In this document: piece by piece, positions 231 through 33,345 of the stretch
How positions within the stretch are numbered: position 1 is the first letter of the stretch
Layout of the letters: each line of letters opens with the position of its first letter
Assembly: GCF_004364155.1 (NCBI RefSeq)
Contig: NZ_SOAZ01000022.1
Coordinates: 1 to 53,449, forward strand
Direction: 5' to 3'
DNA from: Fonticella tunisiensis
Lineage (GTDB): Bacteria; Bacillota; Clostridia; Clostridiales; Caloramatoraceae
Length of the DNA: 53,449 nt
Notes under the pieces: model-generated
What the model was told of the DNA's origin: nothing
The model's database searches: none
What the model saw: the letters and a program-made list of their open reading frames with translations, nothing else
Position numbers and translations under genes: made by a program

Positions 231-254
231 TATAATCTTAGATAGGTGGATATG

Positions 255-1040
255 ATGGAAAACAGAGCTAAGACTAAATCAAATCTTATTCAATCTGTGG
301 ATAGGGCATTGCAGATACTTGAATGCTTTTCAAGGGAGAATAGGGAGCTTGGAGTTACTGAGATTTCAAAATATTTAGGACTGCATAAAAGCACTACCTT
401 CGGCCTCCTATCTACACTGGAGAGCCGTGGGTATGTTGAACAAAACCTTGATAATGGCAAATACAGGCTTGGACTTAAGTTGTTTGAACTTGGTAATTTG
501 GTACATGAGGGGCTTGATCTCAGGAAACAGGCCTATCCTTTTCTTAAGGAGTTAGTAGACAAGTACCAGGAGACCGTGCATCTCGTAGTTAATGATCGTG
601 GAGAGGCTGTTTATATAGATAAGGTAGAAGGGCCTGGAGCTATACGAATGTATTCTCAGGTTGGCAAGAGGCCTCCAATGTACTGTACAGGTGTTGGCAA
701 GGCAATATTAGCCTATATGCCTGACAAAGAGGTGGATAGAATATTGTTCGAAAAAGGTTTAAGGCCCTTTACACCTAATACAATAACAGATGTAGATAAA
801 CTAAAAGCACATCTAGCCGAAATAAGAGAGCAAGGCTACAGTTTTGATAATGAAGAAATTGAAATTGGACTTAGATGTGTAGCAGCTCCAATAAAAAATC
901 ATAAGGGAGAAGTTATAGCTGCCATAAGCGTTGCAGGTCCTTCAACCCGTATGACCTGGGAAAAGATGAATATTCTTGCAATATCAGTAAAAGAGGCCGC
1001 AGTTAATATATCCAGGAGAATGGGATATAAGGGAATATAG
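255..1040 (+). CDS. IclR-family transcriptional regulator
   Basis: A 261-residue protein of normal IclR length. Residues about 10-70 form the winged helix-turn-helix, with QSVDRALQILECF and VTEISKYLGLHKSTTFGLLSTLE. The rest is the ligand-binding domain, including CTGVGKAILAYMP, GYSFDNEEIEIGLRCVAAPI and a C-terminal AAISVAGP strand. ATG 255 is preferred over in-frame starts at 246 and 252 because GGTGG at 245-249 is spaced correctly only for it. IclR proteins usually control adjacent catabolic genes and sense a pathway intermediate. The catabolic cluster begins 500 bases downstream in the same direction, and a related 27-base repeat flanks the gene on both sides. The ligand is unknown. Confidence 0.9.
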   Translation: MENRAKTKSNLIQSVDRALQILECFSRENRELGVTEISKYLGLHKSTTFGLLSTLESRGYVEQNLDNGKYRLGLKLFELGNLVHEGLDLRKQAYPFLKELVDKYQETVHLVVNDRGEAVYIDKVEGPGAIRMYSQVGKRPPMYCTGVGKAILAYMPDKEVDRILFEKGLRPFTPNTITDVDKLKAHLAEIREQGYSFDNEEIEIGLRCVAAPIKNHKGEVIAAISVAGPSTRMTWEKMNILAISVKEAAVNISRRMGYKGI

Positions 1041-1455: not shown

Positions 1456-1539
1456 AAATAATTTAAATAATTTTAGCCATTCTTTGTGAAAGCATAATGC
1501 TTTATTTACATAATTTTATGTATAGGGGGGTTTATGTTA

Positions 1540-2157
1540 ATGAGATTAGTAACATTGCTGGCAGAAGTCGATACTGAAAAATGTACAGGCTGTAGGACCT
1601 GCCAAAAAGTATGTCCAACACTTGCTATCAAGGTTGAAAACAGAAAAGCTGTTGTGGATTCAGAAAAATGCCGAGGATGTAATAACTGCGAACAGCGCTG
1701 TCCTGTATATGCAATAAAAATGGTTAAAAGGGTAAATCCGGTTAGGGTTTATGTTGATCCGTCAACAGTGGATAGAAGTGAAGTTGAAGCTTTGTGTAAG
1801 AAGGCAAGATTTAATCCTGAACAAATAATTTGTTACTGTACTGAAACAAGAGCTGAAGAAGTTGCAGCAGCAATACTTAAGGGGGCAGATACCCCTGAAA
1901 AGCTTTCATTAGAAACGGGAATAAGAACAGGATGTAAGGTTGAATGTATTCAGCCTATATTAAGGCTTCTTGAAGCAGCTGGTATAACACCTGAGAGACC
2001 AGATGGATATCAGTGGTATGGACGTACTCCAACTGTTTGGGACATTCCAGAAGAAATAAAGGAAAAATATTCACACAGAGGATTCTATTTTGATCAGGAC
2101 ATCAAAGTGCTTAACAAAGTAGCTGAAGGAAAAAAATCTCTTGAGGAGGCGAGATAA
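1540..2157 (+). CDS. Two-[4Fe-4S] ferredoxin with BFD-like [2Fe-2S] domain
   Basis: A 205-residue electron carrier. Residues C15, C18, C21, C25 and C44, C47, C50, C54 form two classical CxxCxxCxxxCP clusters. Residues about 95-142 form a BFD-like [2Fe-2S] domain with C98, C100, C132 and C136 (CxC-x31-CxxxC). The last 55 residues match nothing recognised. ATG 1540 is chosen over ATG 1534 because the GGGGGG ribosome binding site at 1525-1530 is too close to 1534. It ends one base before the LarA-like gene, so the two are almost certainly co-translated. BFD domains usually hand electrons to flavin or molybdenum enzymes. Its partner here is unknown; a redox role next to a racemase-family protein is unusual. 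Confidence 0.85.
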   Translation: MRLVTLLAEVDTEKCTGCRTCQKVCPTLAIKVENRKAVVDSEKCRGCNNCEQRCPVYAIKMVKRVNPVRVYVDPSTVDRSEVEALCKKARFNPEQIICYCTETRAEEVAAAILKGADTPEKLSLETGIRTGCKVECIQPILRLLEAAGITPERPDGYQWYGRTPTVWDIPEEIKEKYSHRGFYFDQDIKVLNKVAEGKKSLEEAR

Positions 2158-2158
2158 T

Positions 2159-3592
2159 ATGAGAAAACCTATAACGCCTATGAAACCAAGGGTTTCACAA
2201 TATGGAGTTGATCCTAAGTATGTAACAAAAAGAATGGCAGATTATGAAAATATAACTTCCCTTATGCTAAAAGACCTTTTTCCGGATACACCGGATGTTA
2301 TATTCCCGAGTGACAAGGGTGTGGAGGCTATAAGGGAAGCTGCTGAAAAGGCACTTGAAAATGTTGATATGAGTATGATTAAACCAGAGCATTCTGTAAA
2401 TATCTGTGCATCACACCATGGTTTTACGCTTCTTGGTGGTGAGCCCTATGCGGAACTGTTAAAAACCGTTAGAGATGTAATAGCAAGAAGAACGGGAACA
2501 GAAAACATAAGACTGAGAGCTGGAGTAGGATTAAGATTTAGAGAAACAGAGGAATACATTAAGTCCTTTGGACTTGATAAATATTTCAATGGAAAGGCCA
2601 AGGGAGTTGCTCCTGTTGATGAAGGAATAGCAATAGAAACAGAGATTGGTACACTATATGGAATAAAAGCGATTTACGATGCTGATTGGATAGTTCATGT
2701 TCATAATAGCGACGTTAGAGAAGTACATTTCCATAGGCAAGTAGATAGAGCTGTAAAACCCTTTGGAATGTCATATGCAAGAATAGAAACACGATCAACA
2801 TATCACCAAAATCTTGGACCAAGAGGAGCTAACTTTACAGCAAGAGCAATATTTAATTCAGATTTTGTACAGAAAAAATTTGCGTTTACAGTGTTCCTAA
2901 ATATGTCCCCAGCAGGAGTTGTAAGTGTAGATGCAGACAATAATTTATATGCACTTAATGACAGATTAACAGTTGATGGATGTAAGTATTATGGAAAGAT
3001 AATGACCCTTTTAGGAGAAATTGATGAATGCATAGTAGGGCTTGACTTCCCTTGCCCTGTACCATATGTATTTGCTGCGGGGGTTATATATGCTAACTTT
3101 ACTGGAGCGAATGTAGACCTGTTTGATCTTGATGGGCCACTGCCGCCATATACATGGTATACAGAAGCCTTCTATGGCAAAGATGGAAAGCCACTTATAG
3201 ATAATGTACCACCTGTTAATCCTGCAATTAAAATGGTTGTACATAATTATGCATGGGGTGGATACCCAAGTGCCTTCTTCAGCAATCACTGTCCAACAAT
3301 AGTAGTTGGAAGGGAACAGGCTGATTTATTGAATAGGGACCCACAAAACCTACAATATATGGAACATGCGGTAATTGCTGATAACCTTGATGCAGCTATG
3401 GAGTTTGCATACAGGGTAGCAAAAACTGATAAGGTAATCATTTTTGACGGTGCAGTTGGCGGCATAAATGTAAGTACGAGCCTTGCCAAGCTTCTACTAG
3501 AAAAAGCCCCAATAGTAAGTAAGAGAGTTGATGAAGAGCTTCTTCCAAAATGGCTGAAACAGAGGGGAATTAATCCGGATATACTTAAATAA
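2159..3592 (+). CDS. LarA-like protein (nickel-pincer hydroxyacid racemase superfamily, divergent)
   Basis: A 477-residue protein. Overall similarity to lactate racemase LarA is remote, but three key residues fall in register. H190, K200 and H216 are spaced 10 and 16 residues apart, the spacing of LarA H174 (catalytic), K184 (cofactor attachment) and H200 (nickel ligand), with a constant offset of 16. The stretch LRAGVGLRFRETEE (118-131) matches the LarA ATGTH region, but the second catalytic histidine (H108) is replaced by G or R. TEIGTLYGIKAIYDADWIVHVH (161-182) resembles the strand before the LarA active site. ATG 2159 is used: GAGGAGG at 2143-2149 fits it, whereas TTG 2141 overlaps the ribosome binding site. 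Expected chemistry is racemisation, epimerisation or another hydride transfer on a 2-hydroxy acid. The exact reaction is not predictable. Confidence 0.55.
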   Translation: MRKPITPMKPRVSQYGVDPKYVTKRMADYENITSLMLKDLFPDTPDVIFPSDKGVEAIREAAEKALENVDMSMIKPEHSVNICASHHGFTLLGGEPYAELLKTVRDVIARRTGTENIRLRAGVGLRFRETEEYIKSFGLDKYFNGKAKGVAPVDEGIAIETEIGTLYGIKAIYDADWIVHVHNSDVREVHFHRQVDRAVKPFGMSYARIETRSTYHQNLGPRGANFTARAIFNSDFVQKKFAFTVFLNMSPAGVVSVDADNNLYALNDRLTVDGCKYYGKIMTLLGEIDECIVGLDFPCPVPYVFAAGVIYANFTGANVDLFDLDGPLPPYTWYTEAFYGKDGKPLIDNVPPVNPAIKMVVHNYAWGGYPSAFFSNHCPTIVVGREQADLLNRDPQNLQYMEHAVIADNLDAAMEFAYRVAKTDKVIIFDGAVGGINVSTSLAKLLLEKAPIVSKRVDEELLPKWLKQRGINPDILK

Positions 3593-3663
3593 CCTTTAAA
3601 ATATATGAGAAAAGCAAGCCTCTTAATCTTATAAAAAGTATTTAATTTATAAGGGGGATAATA

Positions 3664-4932
3664 ATGAGCACTCAGCCAACGATAAAAGTTACCTCTATGA
3701 AAGACATGGTATTTGAAAAGGGAGTTGGATTTTTAGCAAGTCTTAAGGATTTGCCTAAGCATATAAACACAAAGACTATAACTGCCGGCGTAGTAGCTGC
3801 GATTTTTGGATGTACGGGGCCTGCGCTGCTGGTTATTAAAGCGGCTAATGATAGTGGCTTAACTCATGCACAAGCAATTTCATGGCTTTTTTCAATTTAC
3901 TTCTTTAGTGGGCTAATTAGTATCTTTCTTGCACTTAGATATAAGTTACCAATAAATGGTGCGTATAATATCCCGGCAGCAGTTATGCTTATAGATGCTT
4001 TAAAGGGACTGAGTATAAACGAAGCTGCAGGAGGATATTTTATTGCAGGCGTTATAGTGCTCATTTTAGGACTATCAGGCCTTATAGGAAAAATAATGAA
4101 AAGAATACCTCTCCCGATTGTTATGGCAATGATTGCAGGTGCGATGATACGTTTTGGTACAGATATTATAAAATCAACCCAGGCAGCACCAATAATAGGT
4201 ATGGCAGCATTATTTGGATATCTTGTGCTTCCAAGAATAGTTAAAAAGATTCCTCCTGTGCTGGGAGCTCTTATGCTTGGTATAATCGCTACTGCCTTAA
4301 CAGTTGGTTTTAAAACAAGTGGTATTGATTTTAAATTTGCAGGTCCACAGCTTATAATGCCGCAATTTAGTTTAAATTCAATTTTTGCAATTGGAATACC
4401 TCTAGCTGTTTTGGTTATAGGGTCTGAAAATGCACAGGCTATTGGTGTTTTAATGGCACAGGGTTATAAGCCTCCAATTAACTTTATGACCATTATAAGC
4501 GGTATTGGTTCAATGATTACTTCATTCTTTGGTGGACATAATGCAAATATTGCAGGTCCTATGACTGCTATATGCGCCTCAGAGGAAGCAGGGGAAAATA
4601 AGGAAGGGCGTTATGCTGCAACTGTTGTAAATGGCATACTATTTTCATTATTCGGTATATTTGCGAGTATAGCTCTTGCTTTTGTTTCAATATTACCTAA
4701 AGATCTTATAAATGTACTTGCTGGATTAGCTATGATAAATGTTTTAATCAGTACTTTCCATGATGCATTCTCATCAAAGCAATTTAAAATAGGTGCTTTC
4801 TTTTCTCTGATTATAGCTATGAGTGGAGTTGTTATATTAAAGATTAGCGCTCCATTATGGGCTTTGCTTGGAGGAGTAATTGTATCCTACATAGCTGAAC
4901 CAGGTGACTTTAAAAAGGCAGCTTCAAACTAA
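3664..4932 (+). CDS. BenE-family benzoate/H+ symporter-like permease
   Basis: A 422-residue integral membrane protein with about 12 hydrophobic segments and BenE family signatures: VAAIFGCTGPALLVIKAA near residues 44-61, a glycine- and isoleucine-rich middle, and FFGGHNANIAGPMTAICASEEAG near 290-312. BenE proteins import benzoate-type carboxylates by proton symport, and they share the nucleobase/uracil transporter fold. A good ribosome binding site (AGGGGGATAATA) precedes ATG 3664, 71 bases after the LarA-like gene. Its position inside the catabolic cluster suggests it imports the pathway substrate, probably a hydrophobic or aromatic carboxylate. Exact specificity cannot be read from sequence. 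Confidence 0.85.
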   Translation: MSTQPTIKVTSMKDMVFEKGVGFLASLKDLPKHINTKTITAGVVAAIFGCTGPALLVIKAANDSGLTHAQAISWLFSIYFFSGLISIFLALRYKLPINGAYNIPAAVMLIDALKGLSINEAAGGYFIAGVIVLILGLSGLIGKIMKRIPLPIVMAMIAGAMIRFGTDIIKSTQAAPIIGMAALFGYLVLPRIVKKIPPVLGALMLGIIATALTVGFKTSGIDFKFAGPQLIMPQFSLNSIFAIGIPLAVLVIGSENAQAIGVLMAQGYKPPINFMTIISGIGSMITSFFGGHNANIAGPMTAICASEEAGENKEGRYAATVVNGILFSLFGIFASIALAFVSILPKDLINVLAGLAMINVLISTFHDAFSSKQFKIGAFFSLIIAMSGVVILKISAPLWALLGGVIVSYIAEPGDFKKAASN

Positions 4933-5085: not shown

Positions 5086-5895
5086 ATGCATCAAGGTATT
5101 GTAAAGGATGTAAGAGATATTGTTTTCTCTTCCATTATGTATAAAAGAATTACAGCTCAAATTACAGTTCAGGGAGACGGGATAATCTCTGGTGTTAAAA
5201 GTGCAGGAGAAAAGCTTAGGGAGCTTGGGGTTGAAGCAGAATTTTATGTAACTGATGGAGATAGAGTGAAAGCTGGAGATATAGTTTCAAAGATCATAGG
5301 AACACCGAAGCAAATAACCTCAGCAGAGGATATGGCAATAGGAAAGATGGCAAAGGCATCAGGTATAGCAACTGCCACCAGCAGAGCTGTTGAATTAAGT
5401 GAAGGGAAAATAAGAATAGTATCAGGTGCATGGAAGAAGATGCCTGGTGAGATTAAGGAAATGGTAAGAGAAGCAGTAAAAAATGGAGGCGCATCATTTA
5501 GAATTGTTGATACTCCATTTATGTATCTTGATAAAAATTATGTTCGTATATTTGGTGGAATTGTTGATACACTTAAAGCTACAAAGGAACTGGGCAATAT
5601 TTGCAGAGTAATCCAACTAAGGGGAGAAACAAAATCTATAAGGGAAGAAGCAGTTGAGGCTATTTCTGAAGGAGCAGATGTCCTTATGATAGATACGGGT
5701 AATGTACAAGATGCAGTTGAAGTTATAAACCTTTTAAATGAAATGGGAATCAGACAAGAAAAGAAAGTAGCCTTTGCAGGGGAGATTAGAATTTCTGACA
5801 TACCACTTTATTCAAGTATGAATATTGATATCCTTGACATAGGTAAACAAATTGTAGATGCTCCACTCCTTGACATGAAACTGGATGTTGTATAG
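5086..5895 (+). CDS. Divergent NadC-like (quinolinate phosphoribosyltransferase family) protein
   Basis: A 269-residue protein of NadC length and fold. Family landmarks remain: AEDMAIGKMAKASGIATATS (80-99), GGIVDTLKA, EGADVLMIDT and the terminal LDMKLDV. Residues that normally bind quinolinate and phosphoribosyl pyrophosphate have changed. The usual DTRKTxPG is SGAWKKMPG (113-121), HR is FR (138-139), xKDNH is LDKNY (148-152), and SGGI is AGEI. It is therefore unlikely to be an ordinary NadC. NadC-family paralogues such as ModD also occur outside NAD synthesis. Here it sits between a permease and a MoCF protein in a catabolic cluster. A role in making or salvaging a pyridine nucleotide, for example a precursor of the LarA-type nickel cofactor derived from nicotinate, is a guess. 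Start ATG 5086 follows AGGGGGAAAG. Confidence 0.7.
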   Translation: MHQGIVKDVRDIVFSSIMYKRITAQITVQGDGIISGVKSAGEKLRELGVEAEFYVTDGDRVKAGDIVSKIIGTPKQITSAEDMAIGKMAKASGIATATSRAVELSEGKIRIVSGAWKKMPGEIKEMVREAVKNGGASFRIVDTPFMYLDKNYVRIFGGIVDTLKATKELGNICRVIQLRGETKSIREEAVEAISEGADVLMIDTGNVQDAVEVINLLNEMGIRQEKKVAFAGEIRISDIPLYSSMNIDILDIGKQIVDAPLLDMKLDVV

Positions 5896-5939: not shown

Positions 5940-6833
5940 ATGGAACTAAATTTACTTCATAAAACTGAACTGTGGATTAATAATATCAAGCTTGAAGGCG
6001 CTAATTTAACTAGAGTAGCTGAAGTAGTAGCAGAAGTTATGAATATTCCAAGGGAAAAGGTGCTTGTAGTTGATGTCAGGGAAAATCATATTACTCTTGA
6101 TATTCTGCAGCAGGAACTTCAGGCAGAATATGTTTTTGGAAAGAAGAAAGAAATATTAAATAAATTAAGGGATATACCGGGAGTTAATATTTTTGATAAT
6201 ACAGACATACATTCCGATGGAATCTTAGGCATGATAGGGCTTGACGAAGATGAAGCCAAAGAGGTTTTAATGAGAACAAAGACAATGAGTAGTAACATAA
6301 AAAACAGAATTGCCAGGAGAGTTATTGTATTTCCAACTGGATTTGAAGTTAAAAGAGGCATGATTGAGGATACCAATACCCCCCTTATAGCTAACATTTT
6401 AAAGGATAAGGGTTATCAGGTAAACCAGGGAGAGATATTAGACGATGATGAAATTCTTATAGCAGGGAAAATCAGACAGGCTGTAGATAACGGCTATGGA
6501 CTTGTTATAACTACAGGGGGAGTGGGAGCTGAAGACAAGGATAAAACTGTTGAAGGTATTTTAAGGGTGGATCCTTCTGCAGCTGTGCCTTATATCGTTA
6601 AGTTTAAAAAGGGAACGGGAAGGCATGAAAAGGAGGGAGTAAGGATTGGGGTTGGACAGGTTGGGCAGACATTGATAGTTGCTCTTCCAGGTCCCAATGA
6701 TGAGGTGAAAATAGGAATCGAAGTGATAATGGATGCTCTTGACAAAGGGCTTAGTAAGGAAGCAATTGCCTATAATTTAGCTGAGGCGTTGCGTGATAAG
6801 CTTAGGAGCAAGATGCATCACCACCATCACTAG
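5940..6833 (+). CDS. MoCF/CinA-type molybdopterin-binding domain protein with C-terminal His5 tail
   Basis: A 297-residue protein. Residues about 1-115 form an N-terminal region of unknown function. Residues about 122-285 form the MoaB/MogA/CinA-type fold, with FPTGFEVKRG, a Rossmann-like EILDDDEILIAGKIRQAVDNGYGLVITTGGVGAEDKDKT block, and LPGPNDEVKIG. The fold occurs in molybdopterin enzymes and in nucleotide-processing CinA proteins. The sequence ends KMHHHHH (291-297), encoded by mixed CAT and CAC codons immediately before TAG. Terminal His runs in bacteria often bind nickel or zinc, as in SlyD and HypB. It sits between the NadC-like and hydratase genes (44- and 38-base gaps). Function is unknown; cofactor handling is the most reasonable guess. 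Confidence 0.7.
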   Translation: MELNLLHKTELWINNIKLEGANLTRVAEVVAEVMNIPREKVLVVDVRENHITLDILQQELQAEYVFGKKKEILNKLRDIPGVNIFDNTDIHSDGILGMIGLDEDEAKEVLMRTKTMSSNIKNRIARRVIVFPTGFEVKRGMIEDTNTPLIANILKDKGYQVNQGEILDDDEILIAGKIRQAVDNGYGLVITTGGVGAEDKDKTVEGILRVDPSAAVPYIVKFKKGTGRHEKEGVRIGVGQVGQTLIVALPGPNDEVKIGIEVIMDALDKGLSKEAIAYNLAEALRDKLRSKMHHHHH

Positions 6834-6871: not shown

Positions 6872-7657
6872 ATGAAACCTGAGGATATTAAACTTGCAGC
6901 AGATACTTTGTTTGATGCTGAAAGGAAGGTTCAGGCTGTTGAAGCCTTAACAAAAGAATTTGTAGATATTAAAGTTGAAGACGCCTATAAAATTCAGCTT
7001 GAAAATATAAATAGGAGGCTTCAGATGGGAGCCAAGATTATAGGTAAAAAAATTGGGCTTACAAGCAGGGCAATGCAGGAAATGCTCGGAGTTCCAGAAC
7101 CGGATTATGGACATTTGTTAAACGACATGATAGTTAATGAAGAGGTACCAGTAAAGATTTCATGCCTTCTTCAGCCTAAGGTTGAGGCTGAAATCGCCTT
7201 TATACTAAAGGATGAACTAAAAGGTCCTGGAGTCACTACATCGAAGGTCCTTCAGGCTACGGAAGGAGTAATGCCTGCCTTTGAGATAATCGATAGTAGA
7301 ATAAAGGACTGGAAAATAAAGATACAGGATACAGTTGCAGACAATGCCTCAAGTGCTATGCTCGTTTTAGGAGGCAAGATAACTCCAGTTAGTGACCTGG
7401 ATTTGAGATATATAGGGCTTGTACTCGAGAAAAATGGTTATGTAATTGATACAGCGGCAGGGGCTGCTGTTTTAGGACATCCTGCTGCAGCAGTAGCATG
7501 GCTTGCTAATAAACTGGCAGAATATGATATAGCCCTTGAGCCAGGGGAGATAATTCTGTCAGGATCTTTAACTAAAGCATATCCAGTTAAAGGAGGAGAT
7601 GTATTTAGAGCAACCTTTGATAGGTTGGGAAGTGTAAAGGTAATATTTGAAGACTAA
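6872..7657 (+). CDS. mhpD: 2-oxopent-4-enoate hydratase / 4-oxalocrotonate decarboxylase family
   Basis: A 261-residue enzyme of the MhpD/DmpE/DmpH family (fumarylacetoacetase-type fold). Hallmarks are GKKIGLTSRAMQEMLGVPEPDYGHLLNDM (58-86), the metal-ligand region QPKVEAEIAFIL (101-112, acidic residues E105 and E107), EGVMPAFEIIDSRI, and GEIILSGSLTKAYPV near the end. Hydratases add water to 2-hydroxypenta-2,4-dienoate to give 4-hydroxy-2-oxovalerate. The close paralogue DmpH decarboxylates 4-oxalocrotonate, and sequence reading alone cannot separate the two. With aldolase and acylating dehydrogenase directly downstream, the hydratase role is favoured. GGAGGG precedes ATG 6872 at ideal spacing. 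Confidence 0.85.
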   Translation: MKPEDIKLAADTLFDAERKVQAVEALTKEFVDIKVEDAYKIQLENINRRLQMGAKIIGKKIGLTSRAMQEMLGVPEPDYGHLLNDMIVNEEVPVKISCLLQPKVEAEIAFILKDELKGPGVTTSKVLQATEGVMPAFEIIDSRIKDWKIKIQDTVADNASSAMLVLGGKITPVSDLDLRYIGLVLEKNGYVIDTAAGAAVLGHPAAAVAWLANKLAEYDIALEPGEIILSGSLTKAYPVKGGDVFRATFDRLGSVKVIFED

Positions 7658-7675
7658 TGTTAAGGAGTGGTTATT

Positions 7676-8545
7676 GTGTCTGATAAGATAAAAGCAGCAA
7701 TTATAGGTCCTGGTAATATAGGTATGGATTTAATGTATAAAATTAAAAAAAGCAAGTACATTGAACTGGATACGGTTGTAGGAATAGATCCAAACTCAGA
7801 AGGACTTGCACTTGCAAGGAAGGAAGGATACAAAACATCCCATGAGGGTATCAAATCAATAATAGGGAAAAAGGACATAAAAATCGTCTTTGACGCTACT
7901 GGAGCAAAGCCCCATTCCGTACATGCGCCTTTATTGAAGGAGGATGGTAAAATAGCAATTGATCTAACTCCTGCTGCAGTTGGGCCCTATGTAGTTCCTG
8001 TAGTAAATCTCCATGAGAATTTTGAAAGTGAAAATATAAATATGGTTACATGTGGGGGACAAGCTACAATTCCAATAGTTTCTGCGATAAATAGCGTAGC
8101 CAATGTAACCTATGCGGAAATTGTAGCAACTATTTCAAGTAAAAGTGCTGGACCGGGTACAAGACAGAACATTGATGAGTTTACAGAAACCACTGCAAAG
8201 GCACTTGTTAAAGTTGGTGGAGCCGATAGGGCTAAGGCAATTATCATTTTAAATCCTGCTGAACCACCTATTATGATGAGAAATACCATCAATACAAGGG
8301 TTGAAAATGTGGATAAAGATGCGATTACAAGAGCAGTTGAGGAAATGGTAAAAAGGGTTAAAGAGTATGTACCGGGATATAAATTAAAAGTACCTCCAAT
8401 TTTTGATGGGGATAGGGTTACAGTTATAGTAGAGGTAGAAGGCGCTGGAGATTATCTGCCAAAGTATGCAGGAAACCTTGATATAATCACATCAGCGGCA
8501 GTTGCTGCAGCAGATAAAATTGCATACAGGCTTTTGAAGAAATAG
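7676..8545 (+). CDS. mhpF: Acetaldehyde dehydrogenase (acylating)
   Basis: A 289-residue enzyme of the MhpF/DmpF family, oxidising acetaldehyde with CoA and NAD+ to acetyl-CoA. The N-terminal Rossmann motif reads [11 protein letters not shown], and the catalytic cysteine is C126 in [24 protein letters not shown] and the C-terminal [11 protein letters not shown] are family signatures. The start is GTG 7676, eight bases after AAGGAG (7662-7667); the upstream in-frame GTG at 7667 overlaps that ribosome binding site. Family members form a complex with the aldolase, channelling acetaldehyde directly. The aldolase gene follows after 11 bases, consistent with that. Confidence 0.93.
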
Positions 8546-8556
8546 GAGGGATTATG

Positions 8557-9561
8557 ATGAATAGGAAAATTCGAGTTATAGATACAACTTTAAGGGATGG
8601 AATGCATGCGGTAAGCCATCAGTTTACTCCGGAGGATATGGCAGAGATTGCACAAAAGTTAGATGAGGCCGGCGTTGATACCATTGAGGTAGGTCATGGG
8701 GATGGACTGGGGGGTTCTTCATTCCAGTACGGTTTTGCAGCAGCATCTGATAGGGAGTATATAAAGGCAGTTTCAAGTGTACTTAAAGGAGCAAAGCTTG
8801 ATGTTCTATTGATTCCGGGGATTGGGACAATAGAAGATCTTGAAGTAGCTGCAAAATATGGGGCGAAGGTTGTTAGGGTTGCTACCCACGTTACTGAGGC
8901 CGATGTTGGGGAGCAGCATATAAAATATGCAAAGAAAATAGGCATGGAAGCAATAGGCTTTTTAATGATGTCCCATATGGCTGATGTTAATAAAATTGTT
9001 GAACAGGCAAAACTCTTCGAAAGCTATGGTGCAGATGCTATTTATGTGACAGACTCTGCAGGGGCATTAACCCCGGCGGGAGTTGCAGAAAGAATAAGGG
9101 CTGTAAAGCAGGCAGTTAAAGTTCCCGTTGGGCACCATGCACACAATAACCTTGGACTTGCCATAGGAAATACCCTGGCAGCAATAGAGGCGGGGGCAGA
9201 TATAGTAGATGGAACCTGCAAGGGGCTTGGAGCAGGGGCTGGAAATGCCCAGATTGAGGTTTTAATTGCTGTTTTAGATAAACTTGGATATGAAACAGGT
9301 GTAGACCTTTATAAAATAATGGATGTTGCGGATGATATCGTTGCGCCAAAGATGAAAAGACCGCAGGTTATAGATAAGGATTCCCTGAGCATTGGTTATG
9401 CCGGAGCATATGGAAGCTTCCTCCTCCATGCCAGAAGGGCAGCTCAGAAGTTCGGAATAGACGCAAGGGATATATTAATAGAAATGGGTAGAAGAAAAAC
9501 AGTTGGAGGTCAGGAGGATATGATTATAGACGTCGCATATGAACTCAGCAGAAGAAAATAG
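8557..9561 (+). CDS. mhpE: 4-hydroxy-2-oxovalerate aldolase
   Basis: A 334-residue DmpG/MhpE-type class II aldolase, splitting 4-hydroxy-2-oxovalerate into pyruvate and acetaldehyde. RVIDTTLRDGMHAVSHQF (6-23) carries metal ligand D14 and the active-site R13 and H21 region. GHHAHNNLG provides the two metal ligands H194 and H196. The C-terminal part (from about residue 260) is the DmpG communication domain that binds the dehydrogenase. ATG 8557 is preferred to ATG 8554 because AGGAGG at 8544-8549 fits it better. It closes the operon; remnants and a terminator follow. Confidence 0.94.
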   Translation: MNRKIRVIDTTLRDGMHAVSHQFTPEDMAEIAQKLDEAGVDTIEVGHGDGLGGSSFQYGFAAASDREYIKAVSSVLKGAKLDVLLIPGIGTIEDLEVAAKYGAKVVRVATHVTEADVGEQHIKYAKKIGMEAIGFLMMSHMADVNKIVEQAKLFESYGADAIYVTDSAGALTPAGVAERIRAVKQAVKVPVGHHAHNNLGLAIGNTLAAIEAGADIVDGTCKGLGAGAGNAQIEVLIAVLDKLGYETGVDLYKIMDVADDIVAPKMKRPQVIDKDSLSIGYAGAYGSFLLHARRAAQKFGIDARDILIEMGRRKTVGGQEDMIIDVAYELSRRK

Positions 9562-27560: not shown

Positions 27561-28058
27561 TTGAATGGCCGGGATAGCGTGGGTAAAACATTAATCATTT
27601 CACCTGAAAAGTGTACAGGCTGTAGAACCTGCGAAGTGGCTTGTTCATTTAGGAAAACCGACTCCTTTAACCCACAAAATTCAGCAGTTACAGTTTACCA
27701 GTATGATGAAGCTGCAATATCCATACCTGTTATGTGTATGCAGTGTGAAGACCCTAAGTGTATGAAGGTTTGTACAACGGGAGCCATCTATAAGGATGAA
27801 AATGACACGGTTCTCATCGACAGGAAAAAGTGCATAGGATGCAAGCTGTGTATAATTGCATGTCACTTTGGGAATATAAGCTACAATTATGAGCAGAAAA
27901 CTTTAGTTAAATGTGATCTCTGCGGAGGAGACCCACAATGTGCAAAACTCTGCCCATCGGGTACAATACAGTTTAAGGAGGCTACTTCAGCACAGCTTAG
28001 TAAGAAGAAGGCACTTGCTGAAAAGTTCAAGTCCCTGCTTGAGGAGGTGGAAAAATGA
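27561..28058 (+). CDS. Four-cluster ferredoxin subunit of aldehyde oxidoreductase
   Basis: A protein of about 165 residues with four [4Fe-4S] motifs in the HycB/DmsB/AorA arrangement: [35 protein letters not shown] and [14 protein letters not shown]. It is predicted to carry electrons between the tungsten subunit and the NADH-linked subunits encoded downstream. Its stop overlaps the AOR start by four bases. The start is uncertain: TTG 27561 lies 17 bases after GGGAGGTG, and GTG 27579 is an alternative removing six residues. Confidence 0.85.
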
Positions 28059-29866
28059 TGTTTGGATGGACAGGTAAACTCATTCGAGTTAACTTAACTG
28101 ATGGAACAGTTAAGACTGAAGATTTGAATCAGGAGGATGCAAAACTCTACCTTGGCGCAAGGGGGCTTGGGACAAAGATATGGATGAACGAAGTAGATCC
28201 TAAAGTTGATCCTTTTAGTCCGGAAAATAAGCTCATTTTCATGACGGGACCACTAACAGGGACCATAGGTCCATCTGCAGGAAGATATGAGGTTGTAACA
28301 AAGGCACCTCTTACGGGAACGATAGGAGCTTCAAATTCAGGTGGACATTTTGGACCTGAGCTTAAGTTTGCAGGATATGATGGAATTATTTTTGAAGGTA
28401 AGTCTGAGACTCCTGTTTATTTGTATATAAATGACGACAAAATTGAACTTAGAAGCGCAGAGCATCTCTGGGGTAAAAAGGTTCCCGAAACAACGGATGA
28501 ACTTCTATCCGAAACGGATCCGGGGGCAAGAGTTGCGTGCATTGGGCCTGCTGGAGAGAAACTTGTTCTATATGCAACGGTAATGAATGATAAACACAGA
28601 GCAGCGGGAAGGTCGGGACTTGGCGCTGTAATGGGTTCAAAAAAATTAAAGGCTGTCGTTGTTAAGGGATCACGTTCCGTTAAAGTAGCAGAACCTAAAA
28701 AATTTATTGACGTCTGCATTGATGCAAGAATGAAGATTAAAAATCACCCTGTAACAGGCACAGGACTCCCAACCTATGGAACTCAGGTACTTATAAATGT
28801 AATAAATCAATCTGGTGCACTTCCAACCAGAAACTGGAGGGATGGAGGTGTCTTTGAAAATGCCGAAGATATCAGCGGTGAGGCACTGGCTGAGAAATAT
28901 CTGGTTAAAAATAAAGGATGCTTTGCCTGCTCTATTGGATGTGGTAGAGTTACAAAAATTAAAGATGGAAAATTCAAGGGATTTGGAGAGGGACCTGAGT
29001 ATGAGGCAGGCTGGGCACTTGGAGCAGACTGTGGGATTAAGGATCTTGCAGCAGTTTCTAAAGCTAACTTCATATCCAACGAATACGGGTTTGACCCGAT
29101 AACGCTTGGCTCAACTATCGCATGTGCCATGGAGCTTTTTGAAAAAGGTATAATCACTAAGGAAGAAGTAGGAAGGAGTTTGTACTTTGGAGATGCTGAG
29201 GCAATAGTGGAACTTGCGGAAAAGGTGGGTACAAGGGAAGGTTTTGGTGATATTCTTGCAGAGGGTTCCTATAGAATGGCAGAGAGGTATGGGCATCCTG
29301 AACTTTCAATGTCAGTTAAGAAACAGGAGATGCCTGCATATGATGGCCGCGGAGTTCAAGGAATGGCCCTCGAGTATGCAACATCAAACCGAGGTGGATG
29401 CCATGTTAGAGGTTATATGACATCTCCTGAAATACTTGGTGTTCCTGAAAAACTTGATCCATTGGTAACTGAGGATAAGCCTCAATGGCTAAAGATATTC
29501 CAGGACCTAACGGCAGTTGTGGACTCTTCAGGAATATGCCTGTTTACTACCTTTGCCCTTGGACTTCCCGAAATTTCATCTATGATTAGAACTGCATTAG
29601 GCTGGGATTGTCCGGACGAAGAGATTTTAAGAATCGGCGAAAGGATATGGAATCTGGAGAGGGTATTCAACCTTAAGGCAGGGTTTACAAAGGAAGATGA
29701 TACGCTTCCTCCAAGGCTTTTAAAGGAAGCACTTCCAGAAGGCCCTGCTAAGGGAAAGGTAGCTGAGCTTGATAAAATGCTTGGCGAATACTACAGGGTA
29801 AGAGGATGGGACGAAAATGGAGTTCCGACAGAAGAGAAACTAAAGGAACTGTCAATTAGTTTTTAA
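28055..29866 (+). CDS. aor: Aldehyde:ferredoxin oxidoreductase, tungsten family
   Basis: A 603-residue enzyme of normal AOR length, oxidising aldehydes to carboxylic acids at a tungsten bis-pterin site. [17 protein letters not shown] and [13 protein letters not shown] are the N-terminal pterin domain, and [17 protein letters not shown] follows. The [4Fe-4S] ligands are C289, C292 and C296 in CFACSIGC, plus C495 in [34 protein letters not shown] is the second pterin-binding region. It is translationally coupled to the ferredoxin gene (ATGA overlap). Substrate range cannot be told from sequence; the operon points to NAD-linked turnover rather than ferredoxin alone. Confidence 0.94.
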
Positions 29867-29889
29867 TGTGGAAACAAATGGCCTTGTTG

Positions 29890-29911
29890 GGGCTGGCCTC
29901 TGTGCCAGCCC
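29890..29911 (+). other. Strong hairpin between AOR and moaD-like genes
   Basis: GGGCTGGC and GCCAGCCC form a perfect 8-bp GC-rich stem with a six-base loop, 24 bases after the AOR stop. There is no T-run, so it is more likely an mRNA stabiliser or processing site that favours the first two products over the rest of the operon. Confidence 0.55.
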
Positions 29912-29991
29912 GAAGATACTTATGTTTTAAACTCTTCAGGATATCAACAAATGGCGTTATCCAATAATATTAATATTTAGAGGTATTGTTT

Positions 29992-30261
29992 ATGAAAGTA
30001 AAATTCTTTGCGTATTTGAGGGATTATACTAAGGCTAAAGAAATTGAATTAGAATACTGCAGTACAGTAGATGAACTTTTACATAGACTCTGCGACAGAT
30101 ATGGCGATGAAATCAGAAGGAAGTTATTTAATGGCAGTGAGCTTAGCAATGAAATAATTATACTGATTAATGGAAGACATATCGCTCACTTGGAGGGAAG
30201 AAATACAATTCTTAAGGAAGATGATGTAATATCGATTTTTCCCGTGGTGGCAGGAGGTTAA
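29992..30261 (+). CDS. MoaD/ThiS-family sulfur carrier protein
   Basis: An 89-residue ubiquitin-fold protein ending in GG (FPVVAGG), the residues that are adenylated and thiocarboxylated. Start ATG 29992 is taken from AGAGGT at 29979-29984; TTG 29986 is too close. In this operon it most likely supplies sulfur for the pterin dithiolene of the tungsten cofactor used by AOR. A dedicated MoaD copy next to aor is common in anaerobes. Confidence 0.88.
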   Translation: MKVKFFAYLRDYTKAKEIELEYCSTVDELLHRLCDRYGDEIRRKLFNGSELSNEIIILINGRHIAHLEGRNTILKEDDVISIFPVVAGG

Positions 30262-30294
30262 CAATCAATTCTTAATAGAAGGTGATAATAGATT

Positions 30295-30783
30295 ATGTAT
30301 GCACCTGAAATAAAAGACAATCTTTTTATTGCCAAGAAAATAATTGAAAAATATCCCAGGGAGCAGAGATATAGCCTCGCCGTTCTTCAGGACATTCAAA
30401 GGGAGTATAGTTATATACCAAGGGAGTGCCTGAAAATGATTTCAGAACATTTGAGGGTTCCAGTAAGTAAACTTTACAGCATGGCAACGTTTTATAAAGC
30501 CTTAAGTTTAGTGCCAAAGGGTGAAAATGTAATAACGGTATGTGATGGAACTGCATGTCATGTCAGATCATCAATGGTTTTAATTGATGAAATTGAAAAA
30601 TGTTTAAATATAAGGCCGGGGCAGACAACAGAGGATGGAAAGTTTTCACTTCAAACTGTAAACTGCCTTGGATCCTGTGCAATTGCGCCCGTTATGATGG
30701 TTAATGATAAATATTATGGTAAAGTTACGCCAAATACGTTAAGGGAGATTCTTAAGAATTATGGGGGCGTCGAAAATGAGTGA
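30295..30783 (+). CDS. nuoE: NuoE-like 24-kDa [2Fe-2S] subunit
   Basis: A 162-residue thioredoxin-like ferredoxin subunit of the NuoE/HndA/HydC family. The N-terminal helices include [26 protein letters not shown] and the [15 protein letters not shown] linker. The [2Fe-2S] ligands are in CDGTACHV and CLGSCAIAP. It pairs with the NuoF-like protein to oxidise or reduce NAD(H). Its end overlaps the next gene by eight bases. A GAAGGTGATAATAG sequence precedes ATG 30295. Confidence 0.92.
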
Positions 30784-32599
30784 TGGCTTTAATAGGAAGA
30801 GAAGAATTTTAGTGTGCTGCGGAACAGGATGCCTTGCCAATAACAGCATGAATGTATTAAGCGAAATAAAGAAGGAGATTGATAAGGCAGGCGCTGATGT
30901 TTCAGTTGAAACGGTTGTAAAGTCTACGGGCTGCAACGGTCTCTGTGAGAAGGGGCCTGTTGTTAAGATTGAGCCTGATGACATATCCTATTTTAGGGTT
31001 AAGGTAGAGGATGCAGGGGAAATAGTCGAAAAGACAATATTAAAGGGAGAAGTTATTGACAGGCTTTTATATTTTGATTTTTCACTAAAAAAAAGAGTAA
31101 AAACCCATAAGGAGAGTGAATTTTACAGAAGACAGATGAAGCTTGCCCTTAGAAATATAGGCGAAATCGATCCCGTCAGCATAGAAGATTACATAGAAAG
31201 AGGAGGATACAGAGCCCTTAAAAAAGCACTCTTTGAAATGAAAAGAAGTGATATAATTCCAGAGGTTATAAAATCCGGCCTTAGAGGCAGGGGAGGGGCA
31301 GGTTTTCCAACAGGGATAAAGTGGAAGCAGTGCGATAGTGTTAAAGCCTTTCCAAAGTATGTCATTTGTAATGGAGATGAGGGTGATCCTGGTGCTTTTA
31401 TGGACAGAAGTATAATGGAGGGTGATCCTCACAGCATAATAGAGGGGATGATCATTGCAGCCTATGCAGTTGGTGCTGAAGAGGGTTTTGCATATATCAG
31501 GGACGAGTATTCCCTTGCCATAAAAAACATGTCAAAGGCCATGGAAGAAGCAAGAAAATGCGGATATCTTGGAGAAAATATTTTGGGAAGTGGATTTAGT
31601 TTTGATATCCAAATAGTAAGGGGCGGGGGAGCATTTGTATGTGGAGAATCCACAGCCCTTATGGCGTCAATCGAAGGTAAGATTGGTGAGCCAAGGGCAA
31701 AATATATTCATTCAACTGAAAAAGGTTTATGGGGACAGCCTACCATATTGAACAACGTAGAAACATGGGTGAATATTCCTCTGATAATAGATAAAGGTGG
31801 AGAATGGTACAGCACTGTCGGTACCGAAAGGAGCAAGGGTACAAAGGTATTTTCTTTAGTAGGAAAGGTTAAAAATACAGGGCTTGTGGAGGTGCCTATG
31901 GGTACTACCCTCAGGGAGCTTATATTTGACATAGGCGGAGGGATAATAGGAAATAAAAAATTCAAGGCCGTTCAAATTGGAGGTCCTTCAGGGGGATGCA
32001 TTCCTGAGGAGCTTTTAGACCTTGAAGTTGATTTTGAATCCCTTAAAAAAGCCGACTCCATGATGGGATCCGGAGGAGTAATCGTTATGGATGAAAGGAC
32101 GTGCATGGTGGATGTGGCAAGGTATTATTTAGGCTTCCTTTCAGAGGAATCCTGCGGTAAATGCGTGCCCTGCAGGGAAGGGATAAAGAGGATGCTTGAA
32201 ATATTGAACGATATATGTGAGGGAAGGGGAGAAAGGGAGGACATAGACAGGCTTATTGAAATATCGGAAATGGTAAGTGAGGCTTCTCTGTGTGGCCTTG
32301 GAAAATCCTCACCTAATCCTGTTATTACAACTATTAAATATTTTAAGGATGAGTATCTTGAGCATATAGTTAATAAAAGATGCTCTGCCGGAGTATGTAA
32401 AAATCTTACTGAATTTATTATTGATGAAAATAGATGTACAGGCTGTGATGTATGCAGAAGGAATTGCCCAGGGGGTGCAATATCAGGGGAACTTAAAAAG
32501 AGTCATTCCATAAACCAACTAAGGTGCATTAAATGTGGAAACTGCATGGATGTTTGCAGATTCAATGCGATTAAGGTCGGACAGGGGGTGGCATTGTGA
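30776..32599 (+). CDS. nuoF: NuoF-like NADH-binding flavoprotein subunit
   Basis: A 607-residue protein with three parts. Residues about 1-110 are a thioredoxin-like [2Fe-2S] domain ([13 protein letters not shown]). Residues about 115-520 are the 51-kDa core with [13 protein letters not shown] (NADH), [20 protein letters not shown] (FMN) and [12 protein letters not shown] ([4Fe-4S]). The C-terminus is a two-cluster ferredoxin ([22 protein letters not shown]). This is the HndC/HydB layout of NAD-linked and bifurcating complexes. Start ATG 30776 overlaps the nuoE stop (ATGAGTGA) with GGGGG upstream; ATG 30761 is an alternative. Confidence 0.92.
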
Positions 32600-33345
32600 A
32601 GGTTTTTATAGATGGAAAGCCATGTGAGGCAGAGTATGGAGAATATATTCTTGATGTTGCAAAGAGGAACGGGATACATATACCAACACTGTGCCACAGC
32701 GATGCTCTTTCGGGTATAGGAAGCTGCAGACTCTGCATCGTCGAAGTGGTTGAGGGAAGCAGAAGAATGGTTGTTACTTCATGTTTATATCCTATTACAA
32801 GGGAAATAGAAGTTTTTACATCTACTGAGAAAATCAAAAAAATGAGAAAAACCATTATTATGCTTCTTTCATCAAGAGTACCACAAAATGATTATATAAA
32901 GAGGTTGAGGGAAGAATATGGAGTTAAGCCGACTTCAAGGTTTAAAGGAGATAATAATGAGCAGTGTATTCTCTGCGGTCTGTGCGTTAAGGCCTGTGAG
33001 GCCATCGGAACAAACGCCATAGCTGCTGTAAACAGGGGAATAACTAAAAAAATATCTACTCCATATGATGAAGTATCTGAGGACTGCATAGGGTGCGGTG
33101 CCTGTGCGCAGGTTTGTCCAACAGGAGCAATAGGGATGTATCAAGAGGAAGGAAAAAGAACTATATGGGGAAGGACATTTGAACTATTAAAATGTGAGCA
33201 ATGTGGAAAATATTACGCCACCAGGGAACAGCTTAAACATTCAATCGATAAACTTGATGGTAAAAAAGAAATGCTCTGTGATAGATGTAAAAAGAAGGCT
33301 GTAGCGGCAAGTTTTAAAACTATATATGAGGATATGAATTTATAA
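32596..33345 (+). CDS. NuoG/HydA N-terminal-like Fe-S protein lacking a catalytic domain
   Basis: A 249-residue protein. Residues 1-75 are a [2Fe-2S] ferredoxin domain ([15 protein letters not shown], then C in TSCLYP). Residues about 115-185 hold two [4Fe-4S] motifs ([22 protein letters not shown]). The His-ligated cluster usually found between them in NuoG and HydA is absent: the segment reads [17 protein letters not shown]. No hydrogenase H-cluster or formate dehydrogenase domain follows. Instead there is a C-terminal four-Cys ribbon (CEQCGKYY...CDRCKKK). The GTG start overlaps the nuoF stop. It probably bridges the AOR and NADH modules. Confidence 0.85.

Follow-up and report, generated by a model that had tools for sequence, protein, structure and literature searches.

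Genes at the LARX locus

The window, which is the whole stretch of 53,449 nucleotides from Fonticella tunisiensis analyzed here, contains an operon of nine genes that all lie on the plus strand: an IclR-family regulator gene is followed by genes for a ferredoxin-type protein, the protein that we call LARX, a BenE-family transporter, a QPRTase-like (QPRT-like) protein, a MogA-like protein, a hydratase-like protein, an acetylating acetaldehyde dehydrogenase (AcDH) and a 4-hydroxy-2-oxovalerate (HOA) aldolase (Table 1). An AGGAGG box at position 2144 lies upstream of the LARX start. The hydratase-like protein falls below every NCBIfam cut-off, with TIGR03220 as the best of four related models, and none of the nine genes in this operon encodes a ring-cleaving dioxygenase. 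Further along the window, translations read by eye place a ferredoxin gene and a NuoE/NuoF/NuoG-like set at 27561-33345, as well as an aldehyde:ferredoxin-oxidoreductase-like gene at 28055-29866.

Table 1. Positions of the operon genes in the window
Feature	Coordinates	Strand	Remarks
IclR-family regulator	246..1040	+	IclR gene also near LARX in 18 of the 37 related loci, within the flanks retrieved
Ferredoxin-type protein	1534..2157	+	two 4Fe-4S motifs and a BFD-like [2Fe-2S] domain
LARX	2159..3592	+	predicted LarA-fold protein, 477 aa; ATG at 2159, stop ends at 3592
BenE-family aromatic acid/H+ symporter	3664..4932	+	PF03594; TIGR00843 over cut-off
QPRTase-like protein	5086..5895	+	105.6 bits; NadC cut-off 198.4
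MoCF-domain (MogA/MoaB-like) protein	5940..6833	+	extra N-terminal domain; C-terminal HHHHH tail
2-oxopent-4-enoate hydratase family protein	6872..7657	+	best model TIGR03220, 325 bits; cut-off 409
Acetylating acetaldehyde dehydrogenase (AcDH)	7667..8545	+	TIGR03215, 466 bits; cut-off 282
4-hydroxy-2-oxovalerate (HOA) aldolase with DmpG communication domain	8554..9561	+	TIGR03217, 536 bits; cut-off 286

We found 37 related loci, whose LARX proteins are 42-89% identical to that of the window. Their carriers are mostly Bacillota-type records, with further metagenome-assembled genomes (MAGs) labelled Desulfobacterales, Proteobacteria, Phyllobacteriaceae, Candidatus Solincola and Propionibacteriaceae; Aneurinibacillus and Alicyclobacillus, which are among the relatives, are presumably aerobic or facultative. 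In 35 of these loci LARX is immediately preceded by the ferredoxin gene, and the other two (L036 and L037) begin inside LARX. QPRT-like genes are found in 32 loci, MogA-like genes in 31, hydratase-like genes in 27, HOA aldolase in 19, AcDH and IclR genes in 18 each, and BenE in 17. Where the QPRT-like gene is missing (L013, L015, L024, L034 and L037), the contig is shorter than 6 kb or ends in LARX. No hydratase gene was found in 10 of the 37 loci: in six of them the contig stops near LARX (L007, L013, L015, L024, L025 and L034), while in four it goes on (L021, L030, L032 and L033).

Two other kinds of genes recur near LARX. A gene for an M24 (Xaa-Pro dipeptidase/creatinase-like) hydrolase (the cluster of L036:487-1596) is found in 13 of the 37 loci, and its product perhaps releases an acid from a conjugate. 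Genes for XDH-family subunits, one of which was checked, lie near LARX in L011, L012, L025 and L031, from Halobacteroidaceae and Desulfobacteraceae MAGs, with aldehyde oxidation as a possible, putative function.

Fold and active-site residues of LARX

According to an AlphaFold (AF2) model built on 36 sequences (pLDDT 87.5, pTM 0.88), LARX has the two-domain LarA fold. A Foldseek search with this model returned LarA-type malate racemases as its top two hits (E-values of 3.8e-8 and 2.0e-7). In VIA-align, the model reached Z scores of 18.6-20.3 over 319-362 aligned residues with 11 entries of the LarA family (the superfamily of L. plantarum LarA, the malate racemase Mar2 and I. pallida LarA), and the score dropped to 6.8 for the next best, unrelated entry; the comparison thus bears out the likeness to LarA proposed in the earlier note. 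Sequence searches did not recover it. The lactate racemase N-terminal family, to which the same note had looked, was matched by none of the 36 LARX members at an E-value of 10 (Lar_N, PF09861; the HMMER filters drop weak matches), LARX had no Pfam match at an E-value of 0.001 and no NCBIfam match, and no LarA chain of the PDB was matched at an E-value of 10, either by phmmer or by a profile search. Since these searches gave nothing LarA-like, the assignment to LarA rests on fold, residue register and gene context.

For the register, we compared LARX with LarA residue by residue. H190, K200 and H216 are all present at the constant offset of 16 from H174, K184 and H200 of LarA that had been claimed from an alignment by eye, and the segment at LarA H108 reads RAGVGLRFRE, with no histidine, as had also been claimed. 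A lysine with histidines at -10 and +16 occurs in 291 of 20,000 shuffles of the LARX protein, and the lysine/histidine register alone is therefore only suggestive. We further aligned 36 LARX-type and 18 LarA-type sequences jointly with MAFFT, numbering LarA on L039. This alignment places H173, K183 and H199 of L039 on H190, K200 and H216 of LARX, and further pairs H108 with R126, D70 (L039) with H86 and R73 (L039) with L91. An hhalign comparison of the same two sets, whose score is weak (E-value of 0.007, probability of 5%), gives the same pairs for K200, H216, R126, H86 and L91, and puts H173 of L039 on H192 instead of H190. The two methods thus agree on the cofactor lysine (K200, for LarA K184), on the nickel-ligand histidine (H216, for LarA H200) and on H108 being lost. 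The equivalent of LarA H174, by contrast, may be either H190 or H192. Of the histidine pair described in the earlier note, then, the loss of H108 stands in both alignments, whereas the identification of H190 with H174 does not hold firmly. D72 and R75 of LarA are not kept, with H86 and L91 in their place, although the pairing is uncertain at such low identity. LarA K298, read by motif as K304 of L039, falls on G326 of LARX in a C-terminal part that is poorly aligned.

Conservation was counted over the 35 full-length sequences among 38 aligned, after dropping the fragments L034, L036 and L037. K200, H216, H192 and H180 are each found in 35 of 35, and H190 and R126 each in 33 of 35. Both exceptions are the Solincola sequences (L032 and L033), which have tyrosine for H190 and glycine for R126; the fragment L034 has aspartate at position 190. 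These three are divergent LARX relatives (42-45% identity) with no hydratase gene seen in their loci, and they may act on another substrate. All in all, we regard the LarA fold and residue register of LARX as close to certain.

Single-histidine members of the LarA superfamily are known. LarA Bw and LarA Sp (PMC12611868) have also lost a catalytic histidine, share with LARX the spacing between lysine and nickel-ligand histidine, and are matched in fold by the LARX model (entries 9q3j and 9q3k, Z scores of 19.7 and 19.8). The loss, however, is of the opposite kind: these proteins replace H174 by asparagine and keep H108 (PMC12611868), whereas LARX has R126 at H108 and a histidine near H174. Their gene context is carbohydrate metabolism, unlike that of LARX. 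More broadly, LARX differs from the LarA superfamily in having no sequence-model match, in lacking equivalents of H108, D72 and R75, and in its ferredoxin, QPRT-like and MogA-like partners and C5-oxoacid context.

Cofactor genes and probable partners

LarA carries a nickel-pincer nucleotide (NPN), with a mass of about 449 Da (PMC12611868). We looked for larB within the loci, and for LarE and LarC across the LARX genomes. With one representative per gene cluster named by NCBIfam, larB, larC or larE was found in 13 of the 37 loci (L001, L002, L004, L005, L009, L016, L018, L019, L020, L021, L026, L035 and L036; the piece in L035 is a fragment), and L019 also encodes a NicT nickel transporter. LarE is over its cut-off in 29 of the 37 LARX genomes and LarC is present in 32. 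At an E-value of 1e-60, LarE occurs in 28 of the 37 LARX genomes versus 87 of 240 LARX-negative genomes of the class (Fisher 8.8e-6, for sets that differ taxonomically). LarE is widespread in the class, where 91 of 245 genomes have it, so that more weight falls on the larB, larC and larE genes within loci, and on the genomes that encode no Lar_N protein. Lar_N proteins are found in 31 of the 37 LARX genomes and in none of G016, G021, G023, G026, G028 and G029. Four of these six (G016, G021, G026 and G029) keep both LarE and LarC, so that LARX is the only client found there, although other undetected clients with a LarA fold may exist, given that Lar_N misses LARX itself.

LarE is below its cut-off in eight LARX genomes (G007, G010, G011, G012, G014, G015, G023 and G025), and four of these (G010, G012, G014 and G023) have neither LarE nor LarC, as far as draft genomes allow absence to be claimed. 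G010 encodes canonical LarAs alongside LARX, without LarE over the cut-off and without LarC, and the gap in this genome is therefore not peculiar to LARX. G058, which is listed as 100% complete, likewise has LARX and no LarE over the cut-off. Genomes of this kind may draw on another source of NPN, or the genes may fall into draft gaps. One locus, L021, joins larE, larB, larC and LARX to a gene of the lactate-permease family and has no hydratase gene. Its larC is split, with one part (3469-4341) just before the ferredoxin gene and the C-terminal part (8151-9329) just after the MogA-like gene, and the LARX core sits between the two. On the strength of fold, register and these genes, we think it likely, with good confidence, that LARX carries NPN or a derivative of it.

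LARX is also associated with the QPRT-like and MogA-like proteins. Among 245 genomes of the class, searched at an E-value of 1e-20 for LARX and 1e-30 for the other two, all three occur in the identical five genomes and in no other (Fisher 1.4e-10), which makes a joint function very probable. Structure comparison shows a MogA/MoaB-type domain in the MogA-like protein, with Z scores of up to 17.4 and matches that include MogA, Cnx1G and gephyrin; the matches listed all fall on this domain rather than on residues 1 to about 120. A His-rich C-terminal tail is seen in many of its homologues, though not in all; with its extra, unassigned N-terminal domain and such a tail in many members, the MogA-like protein could handle nickel or a nucleotide. 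For the QPRT-like and MogA-like proteins together, the probable role is to tailor the cofactor of LARX or to load it.

A predicted C5 oxoacid route and a proposed opening of 2-furoate

As the AcDH and the HOA aldolase of the window score far over their cut-offs, 4-hydroxy-2-oxovalerate, preceded by a C5 dienoate, is the expected intermediate. The likely source of 4-hydroxy-2-oxovalerate is the hydratase-like protein, acting on 2-hydroxypenta-2,4-dienoate (C5H6O3). In this the operon resembles the lower part of meta-cleavage pathways, with hydratase-family, HOA aldolase and AcDH genes all behind LARX; the difference is that LARX, and not a ring-cleaving dioxygenase, would supply the C5 dienoate. 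The aldolase is missing from 18 loci, and 10 of these have other genes that may act on the same C5 oxoacid: Kor-type oxoacid:ferredoxin oxidoreductase genes in L007, L024, L025, L027 and L031, a large PFOR-type gene in L014, L022 and L023, and a gene for a DHDPS-family aldolase in L017 and L018 (checked by Pfam on L031, L014 and L017). These genes could take 4-hydroxy-2-oxovalerate on to 3-hydroxybutyryl-CoA or pyruvate. In the remaining eight, no such alternative was found among the labelled genes.

Addition of two electrons and two protons to 2-furoate (C5H4O3) gives the formula of the hydratase substrate, from which it differs by exactly two hydrogens. Because of this relation we guessed, before testing, that the UbiD genes of L029, L008 and L028 may encode HmfF, an enzyme that makes 2-furoate from furan-2,5-dicarboxylate, according to the available part of a published account (PMC6644310). 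We tested two of the five UbiD genes that lie in loci. The UbiD of L029, whose gene adjoins the ferredoxin gene, best matches PtHmfF (6H6V, from Pelotomaculum thermopropionicum; assigned in an excerpt of PMC8988006) at 530 bits, with the next protein at 211, and the UbiD of L028, encoded about 5 kb from LARX, best matches the same structure at 574 bits, with the next at 207. At a preset E-value of 1e-90, HmfF-like UbiDs occur in 8 of 37 LARX genomes versus 3 of 240 LARX-negative genomes (Fisher 6.1e-6, a value that is only indicative, since the two samples overlap in genomes and are not alike in taxonomy). Within the class, 4 of 245 genomes have one, namely the LARX-positive G215 and three LARX-negative genomes at 38-40% identity. 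With a line of at least 47% identity, which was drawn after seeing the hits, the counts become 7 of 37 (G008, G019, G021, G027, G028, G029 and G035; the eighth, G004, is at 38%) versus 0 of 240. In six of these seven genomes the gene is no more than about 11 kb away from LARX: in five it belongs to the locus, and in G019 it falls just outside L019. General-family aldehyde and alcohol dehydrogenase genes are found in L008, L019 and L028. An HmfF-like gene was not found at an E-value of 1e-90 in 29 of the 37 LARX genomes, Fonticella tunisiensis included.

We propose that LARX is a nickel-pincer enzyme that is fed by ferredoxin and transfers hydride in one direction to 2-furoate, opening its ring, an identification of cofactor, substrate and reaction to which we give a little better than an even chance. 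LARX would hold NPN or a derivative on K200, would bind the nickel through H216 and would not racemize. The ferredoxin encoded just upstream would charge the cofactor with a hydride (two electrons and a proton), which would pass in one direction to C5 of 2-furoate, a vinylogous acceptor. The resulting dienolate would expel the ring oxygen from C5, and breakage of the C5-O bond would yield 2-hydroxypenta-2,4-dienoate, which the hydratase, the 4-hydroxy-2-oxovalerate aldolase and the acetaldehyde dehydrogenase would then convert to pyruvate and acetyl-CoA. As the second face requires no base, a single histidine fits such a scheme, and the substrate carboxylate could be held by Arg126. In some genomes, the entry steps would fall to BenE, to dehydrogenases for aldehydes and alcohols, and to HmfF, which converts furan dicarboxylate into furoate. 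The predicted fold, the residues, the gene linkage, the co-occurrence and the HmfF-like neighbors are observations, and NPN binding, the substrate, the electron route and the roles of the QPRT-like and MogA-like proteins are inferred from them. The components of the proposal differ in strength: a redox role of LARX with its ferredoxin is likely, while reductive ring opening of 2-furoate itself is only slightly favored. The one-sided hydride transfer or new reaction that the earlier note had drawn from the missing histidine is a putative activity, supported by the gene context more than by that residue. Counting against the proposal are the tyrosine or aspartate in place of H190 in three divergent relatives, the unconserved D72 and R75, the genomes in which HmfF-like or LarE proteins were not found over the thresholds, the low score of the hydratase-like protein, the L021 context, the eight aldolase-less loci with no alternative and the presumably aerobic or facultative relatives; the XDH-family genes, and IlvD, present in four LARX loci, have no explanation in this reading. 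We would go as far as a ferredoxin-driven, CoA-independent reductive furan opening on an NPN that the dedicated QPRT-like/MogA-like pair modifies further (adenylylation by the MogA-like protein would be one example) only tentatively, and think it less likely than not.

Three other explanations have to be weighed. A redox enzyme of the same NPN-dependent kind might act on a different heteroaromatic or unsaturated acid whose breakdown likewise leads to a C5 2-oxoacid, such as pyrrole- or thiophene-2-carboxylate, a pyrone or a substituted furoate. The restriction of HmfF-like genes to 8 of 37 genomes, the benzoate-type transporter in the operon and the inclusion of a pyrrole-2-carboxylate decarboxylase in the UbiD family (title of PMC7976604) would suit this explanation, which we nonetheless find rather unlikely, given that both tested UbiD neighbors are HmfF-like by a wide margin and that opened 2-furoate is the hydratase substrate without any further step. 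It is more improbable that LARX is an ordinary or one-way NPN-dependent 2-hydroxyacid racemase, epimerase or isomerase whose neighbors merely share its pathway. Its LarA fold, the retained equivalents of K184 and H200, and L021, whose lactate-permease-family gene makes a context compatible with lactate, would allow for such an enzyme; yet the equivalents of H108 and D72 are lost, a redox-neutral isomerase has no need of the ferredoxin gene that is so constantly upstream, and 31 of 37 genomes have Lar_N proteins besides LARX. The ferredoxin, the loss of H108 and the enzymes for C5 oxoacids also place an ordinary lactate racemase low among the candidates. Slightly more improbable still is a LarA-fold LARX that uses, in place of NPN, another cofactor of nucleotide type supplied by the QPRT-like and MogA-like proteins, for although the three proteins share their five genomes, D72 and R75 (which bind the ribose and phosphate of the cofactor in LarA) are replaced and LarE is below its cut-off in eight LARX genomes, lar genes do lie in 13 loci, four Lar_N-less genomes retain LarE and LarC, and K200 and H216 are invariant.

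The reductive opening of 2-furoate by LARX would connect two lines of earlier work. Other hydride chemistry was foreseen for LarA homologues without a catalytic histidine (Desguin 2020; PMC7583248), and the consulted portions of two papers raise non-racemase hydride chemistry by NPN as an open question and describe the characterized NPN enzymes as racemases or epimerases (PMC7583248, PMC12611868). On the furan side, 2-furoate would be the intermediate in common with HmfF and the aerobic Trudgill pathway. The Trudgill route (hmfABCDE) proceeds by CoA activation and hydroxylation of furoate, as outlined in an excerpt of PMC6604932, whereas the route proposed for LARX is CoA-free and reductive. 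The same review regards the oxygen requirement as an obvious limitation of the route and anticipates that anaerobes or fungi have different ones, and a passage of PMC11191387 mentions anaerobic conversion of furfural to furoate and on to acetate without naming enzymes. In the literature searched, which leaves most subscription papers outside, no named enzyme was found that cleaves the furan ring in furfural or furoate under anaerobic conditions; no link between LarA or NPN and furans appeared among the matches listed (titles and starts of abstracts), and the sole paper with both "nickel-pincer" and "furan" was an unrelated chemistry paper.

Furfural and furoate are abundant inhibitors in plant-biomass hydrolysates. 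If the tentative reading with a further modified NPN is true, LARX would be the first nickel-pincer enzyme to act as a net reductase rather than as an isomerase, and a single operon would combine a reaction and a cofactor variant that are both new with an anaerobic pathway that has so far been missing. The LARX operon makes both NPN chemistry and anaerobic furan opening testable with one enzyme, one substrate and a product that can be followed by UV.
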